Assembly (NCBI GenBank): GCA_016934715.1
Contig: JAFGSI010000045.1
Span: forward strand, 1 to 44,371
Direction of reading: 5' to 3'
Length of the DNA: 44,371 nucleotides
Source of the DNA: Anaerolineales bacterium
GTDB taxonomy: Bacteria > Chloroflexota > Anaerolineae > Anaerolineales > Villigracilaceae
A program made the translations under genes and the position numbers. The notes under the pieces are model-generated. The model did no database searches, was not told the DNA's origin, and was given only the letters and a program-made list of their open reading frames with translations. Positions 24,593 to 40,380 of the stretch are shown here, one piece after another. The first letter of the stretch is position 1; each line of letters starts with the position of its first letter.

Positions 24593-25114
24593 CTATTTCC
24601 TGGCCTGGCGCTTCTTCTGCAGGCTGGCTGCCAGGATCTTGGAGAGCTTCTCCTCCAGCGTTTTCCGGGCGATGTTCTTCACCACCGACCACTCATCCAG
24701 GAACTGGTCCTTCAGTTTTTTCAGAGCGTCATCTTCGATGAAATTCAGCCTGGCTTCCGACTGGCGGGCGTGGAGGTCACGGATCATGCGTGCCATTGCA
24801 TACAGGGAGGTATCTTTGAAGACCTCCGCAACGGCCTTGTCGCGCTGGTGGTGGTCCTTGGGCAGGTCGGCAGGAGGCTGGGCCATGAGCTTCAAGGCCC
24901 GCTGCAGGCGGTATTCGCTGGTGACCGGCCGGATGCGCTCGGCATCCAGGCGGGCCAGTGGCAGCCAGTACATACAATTAAAGGCCTTGACCTTCAAGAA
25001 GTCCTGTTTCTTCCCGTCCAGGACTTTCTTTTCCTGACCTTCGATCTGGCCGATCCCGTAGCGGGCATGGACGATCCAGTCCCCTTTGGCAAAAGTGCCC
25101 TGTTGCTCGCTCAC
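24593..25114 (-). CDS. CarD-family RNA polymerase-binding regulator
   Basis: A 173-residue protein. The N-terminal RNA-polymerase-interacting domain begins with KGDWIVHARYGIGQIEGQE (about 10-28). The C-terminal helical domain (about 75-173) would contact promoter DNA near the -10 upstream fork. CarD proteins stabilise open complexes and affect rRNA and ribosomal gene transcription. A GTG start with AGGAGG 7 nt upstream is chosen, because the nearby ATG leads to an immediate stop. It follows rpsU by 29 nt in an operon controlled by the structured leader at 25410-25607. Confidence 0.9.
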   Translation of the reverse strand: MSEQQGTFAKGDWIVHARYGIGQIEGQEKKVLDGKKQDFLKVKAFNCMYWLPLARLDAERIRPVTSEYRLQRALKLMAQPPADLPKDHHQRDKAVAEVFKDTSLYAMARMIRDLHARQSEARLNFIEDDALKKLKDQFLDEWSVVKNIARKTLEEKLSKILAASLQKKRQARK

Positions 25115-25143: not shown

Positions 25144-25344
25144 CTACTCTGACTGCGTTTTCCTGGCGCGCCGCCTGATGCGCTGGATCGATTTCTTCTT
25201 TTCCAGCCGGCGGCGCTCACTTTTCGAGACGAACCAGCGCTTTTTTCTCAATTGACCCAGCACACCGCTGCGGGTGACCTTCGTGCGGAAACGCCGCAAC
25301 AACTGTTGTTGAGATTCTTTGTCTCTTAATTCGACTTTCGGCAA
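25144..25344 (-). CDS. rpsU: 30S ribosomal protein bS21
   Basis: A 66-residue, highly basic protein starting at TTG (read Met-Pro-Lys-Val-Glu-Leu) with AAGGAG 8 nt upstream. Core bS21 motifs are visible: QQLLRRFRTKVTRSGVLGQL and the Lys/Arg-rich tail ERRRLEKKKSIQRIRRRARK. bS21 sits near the anti-Shine-Dalgarno region of the 30S subunit and helps initiation. The frame is open further upstream through the terminator, which excludes the longer start. It is first in an operon with carD. Confidence 0.9.
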   Translation of the reverse strand: MPKVELRDKESQQQLLRRFRTKVTRSGVLGQLRKKRWFVSKSERRRLEKKKSIQRIRRRARKTQSE

Positions 25345-25409: not shown

Positions 25410-25437
25410 AAAAAGATTTGGTTGTCCCAACCAAATC
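25410..25437 (-). terminator. Intrinsic terminator/attenuator upstream of rpsU
   Basis: On the minus strand GATTTGGTTG pairs perfectly with CAACCAAATC (10 bp, 3-nt loop) and is followed by five T. It lies 66 nt before the rpsU start and about 170 nt after the predicted transcription start. It therefore acts inside the leader and not at the end of a gene. Confidence 0.88.
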
Positions 25438-25607
25438 CCGGGAAGAAGCCCCTCCAGTATGTTAAACAAGCGATGGTACTTTGTTTAACCGAATCAACTC
25501 ATCCCCCCACCGGCATTTCCTGCATGCCGGTCTTTCCCAAACAAGCCGATTCTTGCCGAACCTTCTTCGGATCACCCTGAATGAACGGATTTGGTCCTGA
25601 TTTACTT
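25410..25607 (-). ncRNA. Candidate cis-regulatory leader RNA of rpsU-carD, unknown family
   Basis: Between an extended -10 promoter and the 25410 terminator lie about 200 nt without a convincing gene. On the minus strand they hold three local hairpins: CCGAA/TTCGG (near 25556-25570), ACCGGCAT/ATGCCGGT (25510-25532) and GTTAAACAA/TTGTTTAAC (25461-25489). The 5' segment ACCAAATCC (25587-25595) is complementary over 9 nt to GGATTTGGT (25430-25438), the left arm of the terminator. Pairing of these ends would close a multibranched domain and block the terminator. That is the design of an attenuator or riboswitch with an ON state. I match no known riboswitch, T-box or 6S consensus. A short reading frame ending near 25499 crosses it but lacks a good start. 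Confidence 0.6.
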
Positions 25608-25613
25608 GGGGGT

Positions 25614-25622
25614 ATTATAACA
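25614..25622 (-). promoter_or_regulatory. Extended -10 promoter of the rpsU leader RNA
   Basis: The minus strand reads TGTTATAAT, a perfect extended -10 element (TG, one base, TATAAT). It predicts transcription start near 25607. No -35 consensus is seen. The 100 nt further upstream (25623-25735) hold nothing I can assign. Confidence 0.7.
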
Positions 25623-27519: not shown

Positions 27520-29745
27520 CTATTTCTCGTCCGGTCCGAGCTTGGCGAGCAGGGCGGCGATGCCGCGCAGATCCATCCACCATTGCTGCCTGGGACGCTG
27601 GTGCTGGATGTCTACCAGGCGTTCGAAATCGCGCATGTCGTGAAACTTGAGCTGGCCCTCCAGCAGGCCGATGAAGGCGCTCCGGTCGCCGTCCTGGCTG
27701 CACTGTTCGATCAGGAACTCCAGGCACAGGCGTGCCAGGCGGTTGGCCTGGATGCGGTCGAACGGCGACGGGTCGCCGCCCTGCTGCAGGTGGCCGAGAA
27801 TGGCCGGACGCACGTCGAAGACCTCCCGGCCCTCCTCCTCGAACAGCGAACACATGAAGCCAGTGGTGTAGATTGAGTTGGCGTACTCGTTGCGGATCAT
27901 CAGCCCCAGGCGCTTTCCGCCTTCGAAGCCGCGGGTCAGCTTCGCGACGTCGATCTGCAGGTCCCTGAGGGTCACGCCCTCCTCGTTCAGGTAGACCCGC
28001 TCGGCGCCGGTGGCCAGCCCGCTCATCAGGGCCAGGTAGCCGCACCAGTGGCCCATCACTTCGACGACGAAACAGCGCCGGGTGGCCACCGCTGACTGCT
28101 TGATCTTGTCGACCGCGTCGACGATGCTGTTCAAGGCTGTATCGGTCCCAATGCTGAATTCCGAGCCGGGCAGGTTGTTGTTGATCGAGGCCGGCAGACA
28201 GACGATTGGCAGGTTGAAGGCCGGGAAGTTGTCACGGTTGGCAGTCATGTTGTAGGCCGCCTGGTAGCCGCTCCAGCCACCGATGACCAGCAGGGCGCCG
28301 ATGTCGTTATTCTCGATCGTACGGGCAATGGCGTACAGGTCCGAGCCTTTCGGGACCAGGCGGCTGGTTCCGAGCATCGAGCCGCCCCGTGAGGCCCAGC
28401 CGGTGACACCCATCCAGTCCATTTCCCGGACCTCGCCTTCGGCCAGCCCTTCGAAGCCGTTGTTGATGCCCAGCATGATGTGGCCCTGGTCGAGTCCCAG
28501 GCGGATGGCGGCCCGCGAGGCGGTGTTCATACCCGGTGCGGGGGCGCCGGCGTTGAGCACCCCGATGCGGAAGCGCTTGACGCCCTCGGTCAGCGGATGG
28601 GGCAGGGCTCGCACCATTGTCTTCAAGGTGCTGAAGGCGTCCGTGAAACTGGAACTGCGCAGTCCCATGGCCTTCTGGTAGTCCTTCTCGGCGATCGCCT
28701 CGGCGACGGCCTTGGTCTTGCGAACGCATTCCATCAGCGGCAGTCGGGTCAGGCGGTTGTTGCGGATTCCGATCACCACCGGCTCGTCCTCGGGCCTGGC
28801 GTTCAGCAGCGTGACCACAGCTTCGTGCCCAAGCAGCGTGCCCAGGATGCGATCGTAGGCCGACGGCCGTCCACCGCGTTGGACGTGGCCCAGCACGGTG
28901 ACACGCACTTCCTCCCCCAGACGCTCCTCGAGGGCTTTCTGGACCTCGGTGCTGCCGATGTAATTCCCGTTGCGGTCATGCGCTCCCTCGGCCAGGATGA
29001 CGATGCTGTCGCGCCGACCGGCCTTGCGTCCGGCCTGCAGGCGCTCGGCCATGACCTCCTGCCAGTTCTCCACGTCGGGCGGGGACTCGGGGATCAGAAC
29101 CCAGTCGACGCCGCAGGCCAGACCGCTCATCAGGGCCAGGTAGCCGCAGTTGCGCCCCATGACCTTGACCACGAAGGTGCGCTGATGGCTGGCGGCGGTG
29201 CTGGTGATGGCATCGACCGCCTCGGTGATGCGGTGCAGGGCCGTGTCGGCGCCGATGGTCATGTCGGTGCCGTGGAAGTCGTTGTCGATCGAGCCGACCA
29301 GCCCGACGATGGCCAGGCTGGGGTAAGCCCCGGCTTCTTTGGTGCTGATCTGCTTGCGCGCAAGCAGTTCGGTCACCAGCCCTGGCCACTCCTGGCGGAA
29401 CAGGTCGGCGCCGGTCAGCGAGCCGTCGCCGCCGATGACCACCAGCCCGTCGATGCCGCTCTTGATCAGGTTGCCTGCCGCGGTGCGGCGGCCATCGCGG
29501 GTCATGAATGCCTCGCAGCGGGCCGTGCCGATCACGGTTCCACCGATGTGCATGATCCCGCCGACCGAGTCCCACCCTAATTCGCGGATCCGTTCTCCGC
29601 CGTCGACCATGCCCTGATAGCCTTCATAGATCGCATAGACCTGGGTGCCTTTGTCCAGGGCGGTGCGGACCACGGCCCGCACGGCTGAGTTCATTCCCTG
29701 GGCGTCACCGCCGCTGGTCAGGACTGCTATTCGTTTCGTTGCCAT
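27520..29745 (-). CDS. Tandem (eukaryotic-type) ATP-dependent 6-phosphofructokinase
   Basis: This 741-residue protein consists of two PFK domains, as in animal and fungal PFK. The N-half (1-385) keeps the active-site elements TSGGDAQGMN (10-19), GGDGS (105-109), SIDND with the catalytic Asp (152-156) and PESPP (219-223). The C-half (about 392-741) has the matching fold (NAGAPAPGMN at 398, GTDTALNSI at 533), but the ATP motif is GGWSG (489-493) and the catalytic Asp position reads SINNN (520-524). It therefore looks catalytically dead and possibly regulatory. Most bacterial PFKs are 320 residues. The reaction is fructose-6-phosphate to fructose-1,6-bisphosphate. Start ATG 29745 is chosen because AGGTGA lies 6 nt upstream; ATG 29751 abuts that site. 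Confidence 0.92.
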   Translation of the reverse strand: MATKRIAVLTSGGDAQGMNSAVRAVVRTALDKGTQVYAIYEGYQGMVDGGERIRELGWDSVGGIMHIGGTVIGTARCEAFMTRDGRRTAAGNLIKSGIDGLVVIGGDGSLTGADLFRQEWPGLVTELLARKQISTKEAGAYPSLAIVGLVGSIDNDFHGTDMTIGADTALHRITEAVDAITSTAASHQRTFVVKVMGRNCGYLALMSGLACGVDWVLIPESPPDVENWQEVMAERLQAGRKAGRRDSIVILAEGAHDRNGNYIGSTEVQKALEERLGEEVRVTVLGHVQRGGRPSAYDRILGTLLGHEAVVTLLNARPEDEPVVIGIRNNRLTRLPLMECVRKTKAVAEAIAEKDYQKAMGLRSSSFTDAFSTLKTMVRALPHPLTEGVKRFRIGVLNAGAPAPGMNTASRAAIRLGLDQGHIMLGINNGFEGLAEGEVREMDWMGVTGWASRGGSMLGTSRLVPKGSDLYAIARTIENNDIGALLVIGGWSGYQAAYNMTANRDNFPAFNLPIVCLPASINNNLPGSEFSIGTDTALNSIVDAVDKIKQSAVATRRCFVVEVMGHWCGYLALMSGLATGAERVYLNEEGVTLRDLQIDVAKLTRGFEGGKRLGLMIRNEYANSIYTTGFMCSLFEEEGREVFDVRPAILGHLQQGGDPSPFDRIQANRLARLCLEFLIEQCSQDGDRSAFIGLLEGQLKFHDMRDFERLVDIQHQRPRQQWWMDLRGIAALLAKLGPDEK

Positions 29746-29784
29746 ACCCATTCACCTGCTTCCTGCTGGAAATACCAGGGGCGA

Positions 29785-37803: not shown

Positions 37804-39012
37804 ATGTTCAAGCCGCATTTTCTCAGGTGCTGGTTTTATTTTTGCGTGCTCCTGCTTGTTGTTTCCGCGTTGGGGGGCTGCGATTTACCCAGCGACGAAC
37901 CGTGCACGGCGGCCGAGCTCGAATCCGTCATTGATCCCGCCCCATTCTATGAGGTCGTAGACACCTTAACCCCTGTCCTGACCTGGAGTTATCCGGACCC
38001 GTCCTGTCACCCGGATCATTATCATATTACGATTTTCGATCAGGATGTGGCCCGCTGGCCAAACGATTTCTCGCGCTATCCTCCGGCCCCCATTTTTGAA
38101 GTCGATACCGAGACGGACGATACCTCTTTCTATGTCCCGGCCTCGGCAGGGCTGCTTCCTGGTGAGACCTACTTCGTGGAGGTGGAACCCAAGACTGCTG
38201 ACAACGGGGGACATGACTTCACCATCTGGTGGTTCTCCACCGGCCCGTCATGCCCCACCGGTACGCGCCTGCTGCCGCCCACGCTGCTCTACCCGCCGGA
38301 CGGAGCGACCATGTACTTTCCCGACACCGTCGACCTGGCCTGGGACAACCAGATGACCTGCTGGCCGGCCAATGATTTCTATCTTCAAATCTCTACAACC
38401 GAGGACTTTGCCGCTCCGATCTGGTATGGGACGACCTATCACAATGAGTTCATTTGGATCTCGGACGGTCCGCCGATGTTCTCGGATTGCACGCGTTATT
38501 ATTGGCGGGTACAGATGACCTCTGATTCGGCCGGTGGGCCGTTTTCGGAGACCTGGTCCTTCATTCTTAGTTGGAGTGAAGTCTTCTGCCCGCTTGAGCT
38601 CGCAGTGACCCTCATTCCTCGCGAGCCGGTTGTGATCCCACCGGTTGCAGAGGTCAAGACCAGCGCCGCCTGCCGGTCCGGCCCGGGGCTTGATTACGAG
38701 ATCCGGGATTACCTGGTTGCGGGCCAGATCCTGCCGGTCGAGGGCCGCAATGCGGACAGCACCTGGTGGGTTGTGTTCAATCCCGCCCTGCAGGCGCAAT
38801 GTTGGATCTCCGGCCGACTGGTCGACTTGAGCGGCGATTATAGCCAGGCCCCGGTCGTCCCGGCACCGCCGCTCCCGCTCCCAGCCGTCACCGATACCCC
38901 TGCGCCTTTTGATTGTGGCCAGTATGCAACCAACCCGGCCGCCTGCGATTCCAGCAATTCCTGCCGCTGGGATGCCAGCATCCCGCCGAACGGGGCTTGC
39001 GTGAATAGATAA
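37804..39012 (+). CDS. Predicted lipoprotein, twin A: two FnIII-like units, SH3b-like domain, Cys-rich tail
   Basis: A 402-residue exported lipoprotein with lipobox ALGGC (about residues 20-24). The first unit (about 50-150) contains LTPVLTWSYPDPSCHPDHYH, the second (about 155-260) YPPDGATMYFPDTVDLAWDN and WRVQMTSDSAGGPFSETWSF, resembling fibronectin-III-type strands. Residues about 280-345 form an SH3b-like domain (ACRSGPGLDYEIRDYLVAGQ). The tail FDCGQYATNPAACDSSNSC plus CVNR is Cys-rich, probably disulfide-bonded. GGAGG lies before the ATG. It is paralogous to the next gene at the same length. It may act in cell-surface binding; no enzyme motif is seen. Confidence 0.75.
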   Translation: MFKPHFLRCWFYFCVLLLVVSALGGCDLPSDEPCTAAELESVIDPAPFYEVVDTLTPVLTWSYPDPSCHPDHYHITIFDQDVARWPNDFSRYPPAPIFEVDTETDDTSFYVPASAGLLPGETYFVEVEPKTADNGGHDFTIWWFSTGPSCPTGTRLLPPTLLYPPDGATMYFPDTVDLAWDNQMTCWPANDFYLQISTTEDFAAPIWYGTTYHNEFIWISDGPPMFSDCTRYYWRVQMTSDSAGGPFSETWSFILSWSEVFCPLELAVTLIPREPVVIPPVAEVKTSAACRSGPGLDYEIRDYLVAGQILPVEGRNADSTWWVVFNPALQAQCWISGRLVDLSGDYSQAPVVPAPPLPLPAVTDTPAPFDCGQYATNPAACDSSNSCRWDASIPPNGACVNR

Positions 39013-39171: not shown

Positions 39172-40380
39172 ATGTCTCATCGACACCTTCCTAAGCGCCT
39201 GGGGTTTGTTTGCGCCCTGGCGTTCCTGCTGGCTTCGCTGGCTGGCTGCTACCTGCCGACTGATGAACCCTGTACCGCGGACGAATTGACCTGGGTTGCG
39301 GATGTTTCCCCTGTGGGAGCTGTGGTTGACACCCTGACGCCCACCCTGAGCTGGTCCTATCCAGACCCGTCCTGTCACCCTGACCATTACCTCCTCACGC
39401 TCTATGATCAGGATGTGATTCGCTGGCCCAATGATTATCTGGAACATCCGCCGGTCCCCATTCACCGGGCCCAGACGACCGAAACCGACTACCGCATCCC
39501 GGCCGAGGTGGGCCTGCTGTCTGGCACGACCTACTTCTGGGAGGTGATGACCGCGACTGACTCCGGGGAAAGCGGCGGCCGGGTGATCTCCTGGTTCACT
39601 GTCGGTCCACGCTGCCATGCGGACACCCGCCTGCTCCCGCCGCTGCTGGAATACCCGCCCAACGGCCAAGCGGCGTATTTCCCCGGTTCGGTCGACCTGG
39701 AGTGGGACAACCAGAATGCCTGCCTGCCCGCCGGAGGGTTTCGCATCGAAATATCGACCCAGGAAGATTTTTCTTCTCTGGTCTGGTACGCCGATGCGCG
39801 CTTCCAGGAGATCACCTGGATTAGCAGCCATCCGCCGCTGTTCGAAGACTGCCAGCAGTATTTCTGGCGCGTTCAGGCCAACCCGGAAGGGGGTGGGGCG
39901 GGGGTTTATTCTGAGACCTGGTCCTTCATTTTGATGTATACGGGTTTCTTCTGTCCGCTCGATCTGTTCCCGACCCTGATCCCGCATGAGCCCATCCGCC
40001 TGCCGCCCTCGGCGACGGTCGAGGAGGCGGCCTCCTGTCGCGCTGGCCCAGGGCTGGATTACCCGATTATCGATTACCTCGAACCTGGCCAGGTCATGCC
40101 AGTGGAGGGCCAGAACCAGGACCGCAGTTGGTGGTACGTTCTGAGTCCGAATGCTCAGGTGCGCTGCTGGGTTTCCGCCCGGCTGCTAGACGTGAGTGGG
40201 GACATCGAACGGGTACCGCTCGTCGAGGCCTCGCCGCCTCCCGGTCCGACCGAGACCGGGACCGAGCCATCGTTCAACTGTGCCCAGTACAACACCGACC
40301 CGACCAGCTGTAACAATGCCGCCAATTTCTGTGTTTGGGATTCAAGCATCCAACCCAACGGGGCCTGTGTGAACCGCTGA
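39172..40380 (+). CDS. Predicted lipoprotein, twin B: two FnIII-like units, SH3b-like domain, Cys-rich tail
   Basis: A 402-residue paralogue of the preceding gene with the same domain order and many shared motifs: lipobox SLAGC, LTPTLSWSYPDPSCHPDHY, YPPNGQAAYFPGSVDLEWDN, GVYSETWSFIL, SCRAGPGLDYPIIDYLEPGQ and the Cys-rich tail FNCAQYNTDPTSCN plus GACVNR. GAGGAGGT lies just before the ATG. The pair comes from a recent tandem duplication. SH3b-like modules often bind peptidoglycan or proteins; substrate inference stops there. A 12-bp hairpin follows. Confidence 0.75.
   Translation: MSHRHLPKRLGFVCALAFLLASLAGCYLPTDEPCTADELTWVADVSPVGAVVDTLTPTLSWSYPDPSCHPDHYLLTLYDQDVIRWPNDYLEHPPVPIHRAQTTETDYRIPAEVGLLSGTTYFWEVMTATDSGESGGRVISWFTVGPRCHADTRLLPPLLEYPPNGQAAYFPGSVDLEWDNQNACLPAGGFRIEISTQEDFSSLVWYADARFQEITWISSHPPLFEDCQQYFWRVQANPEGGGAGVYSETWSFILMYTGFFCPLDLFPTLIPHEPIRLPPSATVEEAASCRAGPGLDYPIIDYLEPGQVMPVEGQNQDRSWWYVLSPNAQVRCWVSARLLDVSGDIERVPLVEASPPPGPTETGTEPSFNCAQYNTDPTSCNNAANFCVWDSSIQPNGACVNR

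Follow-up and report, generated by a model that had tools for sequence, protein, structure and literature searches.

The question raised by this locus is what a strongly structured RNA of about 200 nt would do in front of a gene for ribosomal protein bS21 and a gene for a regulator of RNA polymerase. The window (i.e., the whole 44,371-nucleotide stretch of DNA that was analysed, from an uncultured member of the Chloroflexota) carries on its minus strand rpsU2, a second bS21 gene with a TTG start (25144..25344; Pfam PF01165, 40.3 bits), and carD2, a gene with a GTG start for a CarD-like RNA polymerase-binding regulator (24593..25114; Pfam PF02559 and PF21095). The housekeeping rpsU of the window genome (G000) is on contig C87 and another carD is on contig C36. 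The window rpsU is a second bS21 copy adjoining a second carD, not the housekeeping gene. An earlier, sequence-only reading of this DNA had described the region as a leader of rpsU-carD; the leader was confirmed, but that reading had missed that the pair is accessory and that the housekeeping rpsU has a different, conserved leader of its own. We consider it reasonably probable that the region is a transcription attenuator of this second rpsU-carD operon, with free bS21 as the most likely signal, and the best reading is that it is built like a so-far undescribed family of rpsU attenuators. Elsewhere in the window, inspection by eye showed a 743-aa ORF with two phosphofructokinase-like halves in tandem (27520-29751, minus strand) and, next to each other, two 402-aa ORFs that resemble one another and begin like lipoproteins (37804-39012 and 39172-40380, plus strand).

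All parts of the leader lie on the minus strand. An extended -10 promoter, TGTTATAAT, was read directly at 25614..25622 and is without a -35 hexamer. It is followed by a leader RNA of ~198 nt with an attenuator (25410..25607), which is supported by sequence, folding and shuffles and has no Rfam match. Near its 5' end is the 5' strand of a helix termed P1, ACCAAATCC at 25587..25595, a 9-nt complement of the left arm of the terminator and therefore the candidate antiterminator. Three hairpins follow, all read directly and recovered in folds: CCGAA-GAAGG-TTCGG within the P1 domain (25556..25570), a perfect 8-bp hairpin ACCGGCAT/ATGCCGGT (25509..25531) and a 9-bp hairpin GTTAAACAA/TTGTTTAAC (25461..25489). 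The 3' strand of P1 (25430..25438; read directly, folding and partition function) is common to the left arm of an intrinsic terminator of 10 bp plus a T run (25410..25438), which was read directly and also found by hairpin scan and partition function. The terminator arms, GGATTTGGTT at 25438-25429 and AACCAAATCT at 25423-25414, form 9 Watson-Crick pairs and one G-U pair; the T run occupies 25414-25410, 65 nt separate it from the TTG start at 25344, and the hairpin had an energy of -12.1 kcal/mol in our own scan. The extended -10 element, the hairpins and the 10-bp terminator described by the sequence-only reading were all present as given. Promoter, leader and intrinsic terminator all precede rpsU2, and the leader precedes a ribosomal protein gene (PF01165 in rpsU2). 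A possible pairing CTTCTTC/GAAGAAG within the leader was seen by eye only and is not claimed.

Folding of the leader was compared with that of dinucleotide shuffles, only 4/200 of which folded as well (z -2.77). In dinucleotide shuffles, a Watson-Crick complement of at least 9 nt to the terminator left arm was rare: 15/20,000 had one within the first 40 nt, and 55/20,000 had one at any position 5' of the terminator. The best structure with P1 forced (-68.0 kcal/mol) and that with the terminator (-68.6 kcal/mol) were near-equal in energy. In the partition function, P1 had a probability of 0.93 when the transcript ended at the left arm; once the T run was complete, P1 fell to 0.05 and the terminator reached 0.91. 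This computed behaviour is what a switch deciding during transcription would need. The earlier claim that 25587-25595 is complementary to 25430-25438 was confirmed, and the claim that closing the leader domain would block the terminator is supported by the rarity of the match in shuffles and by mutually exclusive helices of near-equal energy. The attenuator logic, in which P1 excludes the terminator, can be read from the sequence itself, and chance is an improbable source of it.

The rpsU2-carD2 pair recurs in two further genomes, G031 and G112, where it is likewise preceded by promoter, leader (~200 nt) and terminator. The search among 152 genomes of the window's family used a two-row rpsU2 alignment (window and G031); 21 genomes of G031's family were searched as well. 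In the former, the window rpsU2 reached 126.7 bits, against 101 for the next match; in the latter, G031 and G112 both scored 123.4 bits and the next match 95.9. Because the window and G031 copies are inside the queries, only G112 and the score gap are independent. The G031 copy is 57% and the housekeeping copy 58% identical to the window rpsU2, so that identity alone is no marker of the pair. The leaders of G031 (locus L091) and G112 are near-identical: each carries the promoter element TGTGTTATAAT, measures about 200 nt and has a TTTTT terminator ahead of rpsU2. In folds the terminator was clear in both, while an antiterminator was absent in G031 and only a 5-bp candidate was found in G112. 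In the 5' hairpin of these leaders four pairs are changed, and all are still paired (by eye).

A CarD2 alignment was searched in 396 genomes of the class. Its closest relatives, in G050, G075, G108, G411, G510, G527 and G554, had no adjoining rpsU match; the check for a neighbouring rpsU covered a subset of the carD matches, namely the 29 loci L094-L122 plus L123 and L124. A CarD2 scan of the genome_contigs collection found nothing. At L114 (G265), an S21-like gene lies about 510 nt upstream of carD, with two small ORFs in the interval, and this locus was not counted as an rpsU2-carD2 pair; the row there (L114:848-1510) consists of the S21-like gene, an L35-like gene (by eye), a small basic ORF and then carD. 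The sporadic occurrence of the pair suggests transfer or frequent loss.

Rfam 15 at gathering score identified only 2 tRNAs in the whole window. Covariance search of the leader against Rfam, which the sequence-only reading had proposed as a check, gave no family match: at E up to 10 the leader region had five matches with E of 1.8 to 7.4, each far below gathering score and at chance level, and none of them was a riboswitch or a T-box. Among these matches, identification of the leader as a T-box or metabolite riboswitch found no support. At nine related loci Rfam matched only rRNA, and the rpsU upstream regions there had no match. A DNA search with the window leader in 41 genomes matched only itself; in 201 genomes of the order, at E up to 1, it matched itself and short chance-level sequences, the best other match having an E of 0.008. 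Local alignment of the window leader with that of G031 was marginal (24/500 shuffles as good). A leader of such kind at rpsU was not found in the open-access literature that was searched, and the description of the family as undescribed holds against Rfam 15 and the literature searched.

The housekeeping rpsU of the same genome is preceded by a leader at G000:C87:56964-57106 (L092:1465-1607, minus strand). Its lowest-energy fold closes P1, joining the 5' end to the terminator arm (CACAG..CAGCC with GGCTG..CTGTG). We compiled the regions upstream of rpsU in genomes of the window's family and of further families of the order, 131 in all, including the three rpsU2 leaders. A terminator-like hairpin was found within the final 175 nt in 90 of the 131 regions vs. 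6 of 73 controls (ORFs of 200 aa or more), at a hairpin limit of -8 under which the G000 housekeeping leader (-7.9) counted as a miss. Sorting by regular expression assigned 43 regions to type A, 27 to type B (including the G000 leader) and 61 to a class "other," some members of which visibly carry the motif (e.g., L158, L171, L173, L174, L178, L191, L197, and L200). Type A leaders have the order TATAAT, GCAG-n-TTCGGC, a variable hairpin, AAGGAGTGTGAAGCG, TGATCnnnnGATCA, CGTTTC, CCTCGGCYGAGTCTG, AGCCGA, and a run of T. In their P1, GCAG-n-TTCGGC pairs with CCTCGGCYGAGTCTG, which is also the terminator left arm.

Conserved pairing, sought in relatives, is present for the housekeeping leader, and most of the covariation lies outside P1. 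This was assessed on an alignment (A4) of 32 of the 43 type A leaders, from which L034, L041, L156, L159, L168, L182, L186, L215, L219, L230, and L231 were removed manually, without a rule set in advance, as near-duplicates, one cut sequence, or leaders of odd length or shifted terminator. In the P1 state, 91.4% of cells were paired, compared with 33-53% in slid controls. Five measures of covariation were applied to this state, two of which gave weak results. Double-change cells numbered 32 against a shuffle mean of 16.6, with 0/500 shuffles as high; 27 of them were in the variable hairpin (67.3% paired) and only 5 in P1. The weak measures were the number of pairs with a double change (8 vs. 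5.6; 31/500 shuffles as high) and of further pair types (25 vs. 22.9; 97/500 as high). In the terminator state, 90.0% of cells were paired and 43 showed double changes against a mean of 19.5 (0/500 as high); 16 of the 43 were in the terminator, with one pair being C-G in 13 leaders and U-A in 13. The core GAAGCG/CGTTTC (RNA GAAGCG/CGUUUC) was invariant in 32/32 leaders and therefore gives no covariation evidence; its invariance suggests recognition of sequence.

In an alignment-free test, the 5' ends paired better with their own terminator arms than with swapped arms: in 5000 permutations none was as good in type A (43), type B (27) or both together (70). The corresponding control with a mid-segment gave 1205/2000 for type A, 1/2000 for type B and 5/2000 for both. 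Since this control was significant in B and in A plus B, though null in A, relatedness or another helix contributes; relatedness among the leaders was not removed in these permutations. The G000 housekeeping leader did not stand out in the swap test, as 21/69 other arms and 44/69 other 5' ends gave better pairing. In the housekeeping leaders, a helix AAGG/CCTT adjoining P1 was seen by eye only and is not claimed.

The covariance model of this family, R1, was searched over 396 class genomes; at E up to 0.01 it matched 20 places in 19 genomes, all of the window's family. Nine of the 19 matched genomes had contributed rows to R1, and the other ten account for 11 of the 20 matches. With the strict search filters used, R1 had no match in six other listed genomes of the window's family. 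Each of the 20 matches is followed, 34-42 nt further downstream on the same contig, by an rpsU match. In a phylum sample of 350 genomes, which overlaps the 396-genome sample, the 17 matches in 16 genomes were the same places, all upstream of rpsU. An exact pattern searched over genome_contigs identified 15 records, all labelled Chloroflexi, Chloroflexota, Anaerolineae, Anaerolineales or Villigracilaceae, with 15/15 matches 79-101 nt upstream of an rpsU match; some of these records are genomes behind R1 rows (e.g., L252 and G009:C39). The G000 housekeeping leader matched R1 (36.5 bits, E 2.5e-6), several of the pairs being non-standard. This housekeeping rpsU leader belongs to a conserved, attenuator-like family of Anaerolineales and is probably a more important find than the window leader.

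Several further observations concern the rpsU genes of these genomes. An extended Shine-Dalgarno sequence, AAGGAGGTGA, is frequent at the housekeeping rpsU and occurs in 79 of the 131 regions. In the 15 loci L252-L266 it was found in 11 places, 10 of which precede rpsU and one of which reads as antisense of a 16S 3' end (by eye); these loci were chosen for rpsU, so that the count is not a genome-wide rate. The window rpsU2 is without AAGGAGGTGA and has only AAGGAGAG. Tandem rpsU pairs about 750-900 bp apart were noticed at G172:C15, G211:C47, G613:C80, G656:C1, G664:C52, and G647:C122. In L253, L256, L259, L261, and L264, which have a second rpsU, the exact pattern precedes one of the two copies, and in L034, L036, and L044 23S and 5S rRNA genes lie upstream of rpsU.

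In design, the window leader resembles the housekeeping leader of the same genome: in both, the 5' end pairs with the terminator left arm, and the housekeeping leader, of ~150 nt, is likewise directly before rpsU. They differ in sequence, however, with no similarity beyond that of shuffles (398/500 as good in local alignment). R1 had no match in the window at E up to 10 and was rejected as a common model for the two leaders, and the housekeeping core (GGAGTGTGAAGCG plus CGTTTC) is absent from the window leader. The window leader would thus work like the housekeeping family, but its membership in that family is not supported by R1 or by alignment. For a mixed alignment of 28 rows, RNAalifold predicted no structure (energy 0).

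Known systems offer partial parallels. Ribosomal protein leaders that mediate autoregulation by conditional Rho-independent terminators have been described (Eckert and Weinberg, 2020; PMC7247131), and these resemble the window leader in being structured 5' leaders of ribosomal protein genes with a terminator and an alternative fold. Unlike them, the window leader matches no Rfam family and its binding of a protein is only hypothetical; the main text of that 20-leader paper has no hit for rpsU, S21 or Chloroflex. According to PMC9976891, bS21 of Flavobacterium controls its own translation via an extended Shine-Dalgarno sequence, the control being exerted by ribosomes without bS21. Control of rpsU by bS21 supply, hypothesized here, would be alike, and the AAGGAGGTGA Shine-Dalgarno sequence that is frequent at the housekeeping rpsU is reminiscent of this Bacteroidota autoregulation. 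The Flavobacterium control is, however, translational, whereas a terminator/antiterminator leader is predicted here and rpsU2 has only AAGGAGAG. Outside the ribosome, bS21 was described in PMC12054373 as binding the structured OLE RNA and changing its fold; that RNA uses a mimic of the Shine-Dalgarno/anti-Shine-Dalgarno duplex, while the window leader is without CCTCC and has only GGAGG at 25455-25451. A 2024 review (PMC10931766) states that regulation of E. coli rpsU remains unknown and that bS21 autoregulation in Flavobacterium is translational.

We propose that RNA polymerase would start near 25607 and first make a multi-hairpin domain of ~165 nt. As the terminator left arm emerges, the P1 5' strand would capture it, which would allow read-through into rpsU2 and carD2. 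If closure of the domain were prevented or P1 displaced, the 10-bp terminator would form and an RNA of ~200 nt would be released. A ribosomal protein acting autogenously would need either to open P1 or to stabilize a structure incompatible with it. Free bS21, whether made from rpsU2, from the housekeeping gene or from the two together, may bind the leader and open P1, such that the rpsU2-carD2 pair would be made when bS21 is short and its transcription terminated otherwise. We infer the start site, termination in vivo, the direction of control and the ligand. By this inference bS21 would be the likeliest ligand: its genes lie downstream of both leaders, the sister family was not seen elsewhere, and binding of bS21 to OLE RNA is known.

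Three other explanations were weighed. The main rival is a general stress or growth attenuator, in which cold-shock proteins or other RNA chaperones, pausing of the polymerase or temperature would melt leader terminators at several growth genes (rpsU, carD and csp) alike without specificity for bS21. Given that terminator hairpins are also found upstream of the housekeeping carD of G000, of 8/20 other carD loci scanned and of one of the three G000 csp genes, such a general signal is possible. The rpsU leaders, on the other hand, have an invariant core, a 5' end matched to the terminator arm and significant matches only at rpsU, and the carD leaders are short and differ in look from them; we regard this rival as improbable. 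The short leader of the housekeeping carD has a recurring terminator-like hairpin, GCCAGTCCTTTT..AAGGCTGGC plus a T run, at about 1990-1915 of L093 (minus strand) and also in L005, L006, L007, L011, L012, L015, L017, and L018; L093 and L007 had no Rfam match. In L267 (minus strand), a terminator-like hairpin plus eight T lies about 90-120 nt before the domain start of one csp gene.

The region might instead encode a stand-alone small RNA of ~200 nt, with rpsU2-carD2 transcribed from elsewhere and the P1 match due to chance. Promoter and terminator would delimit a complete small RNA, and the window P1 has no alignable homologue in which covariation could be sought. A generic consensus scan found no promoter-like site between the terminator and rpsU2 from which the genes could be transcribed. 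It should be noted that the same scan listed neither the window terminator nor the leader promoter, so its empty terminator-gene interval says little; the promoter escaped because the scan demands a -35 hexamer, and the terminator was perhaps skipped as its outer G-U pair may use up one of the five T. Against a small RNA, the P1 complement was rare in shuffles (15/20,000), and promoter, leader and terminator also precede rpsU2 in G031 and G112; we regard this explanation as very improbable. The least probable of all is a metabolite or tRNA riboswitch that happens to precede rpsU2-carD2, for which the aptamer-like multi-hairpin domain, closed by P1 and excluding the terminator, would speak. None of the five Rfam matches at E up to 10, however, was a riboswitch or T-box, and neither rpsU2 nor carD2 is a metabolic gene. 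The similarly designed housekeeping leader was seen only in front of rpsU; this favours bS21 over a metabolite, since a switch responding to a metabolite should also turn up at other genes.

With a bS21-sensing attenuator as the preferred reading, the existence of a leader family whose significant matches were only at rpsU and of a second leader of the same design at rpsU-carD makes transcription attenuation controlled by bS21 directly testable. The same-design RNA at the housekeeping S21 gene of the window genome and of many relatives may represent a new kind of self-regulation. The presence of a bS21 paralogue and a regulator of RNA polymerase in one operon ties ribosome heterogeneity to polymerase control. 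A bolder proposal, which we advance tentatively and consider unlikely on balance, is that both leaders are independently evolved bS21-sensing transcription attenuators and that the accessory operon swaps bS21, which handles the Shine-Dalgarno sequence on the ribosome, together with a polymerase regulator when housekeeping bS21 is short. If two independent attenuators of this kind do exist, they would be the first known examples of RNA elements that detect bS21 through transcription termination.
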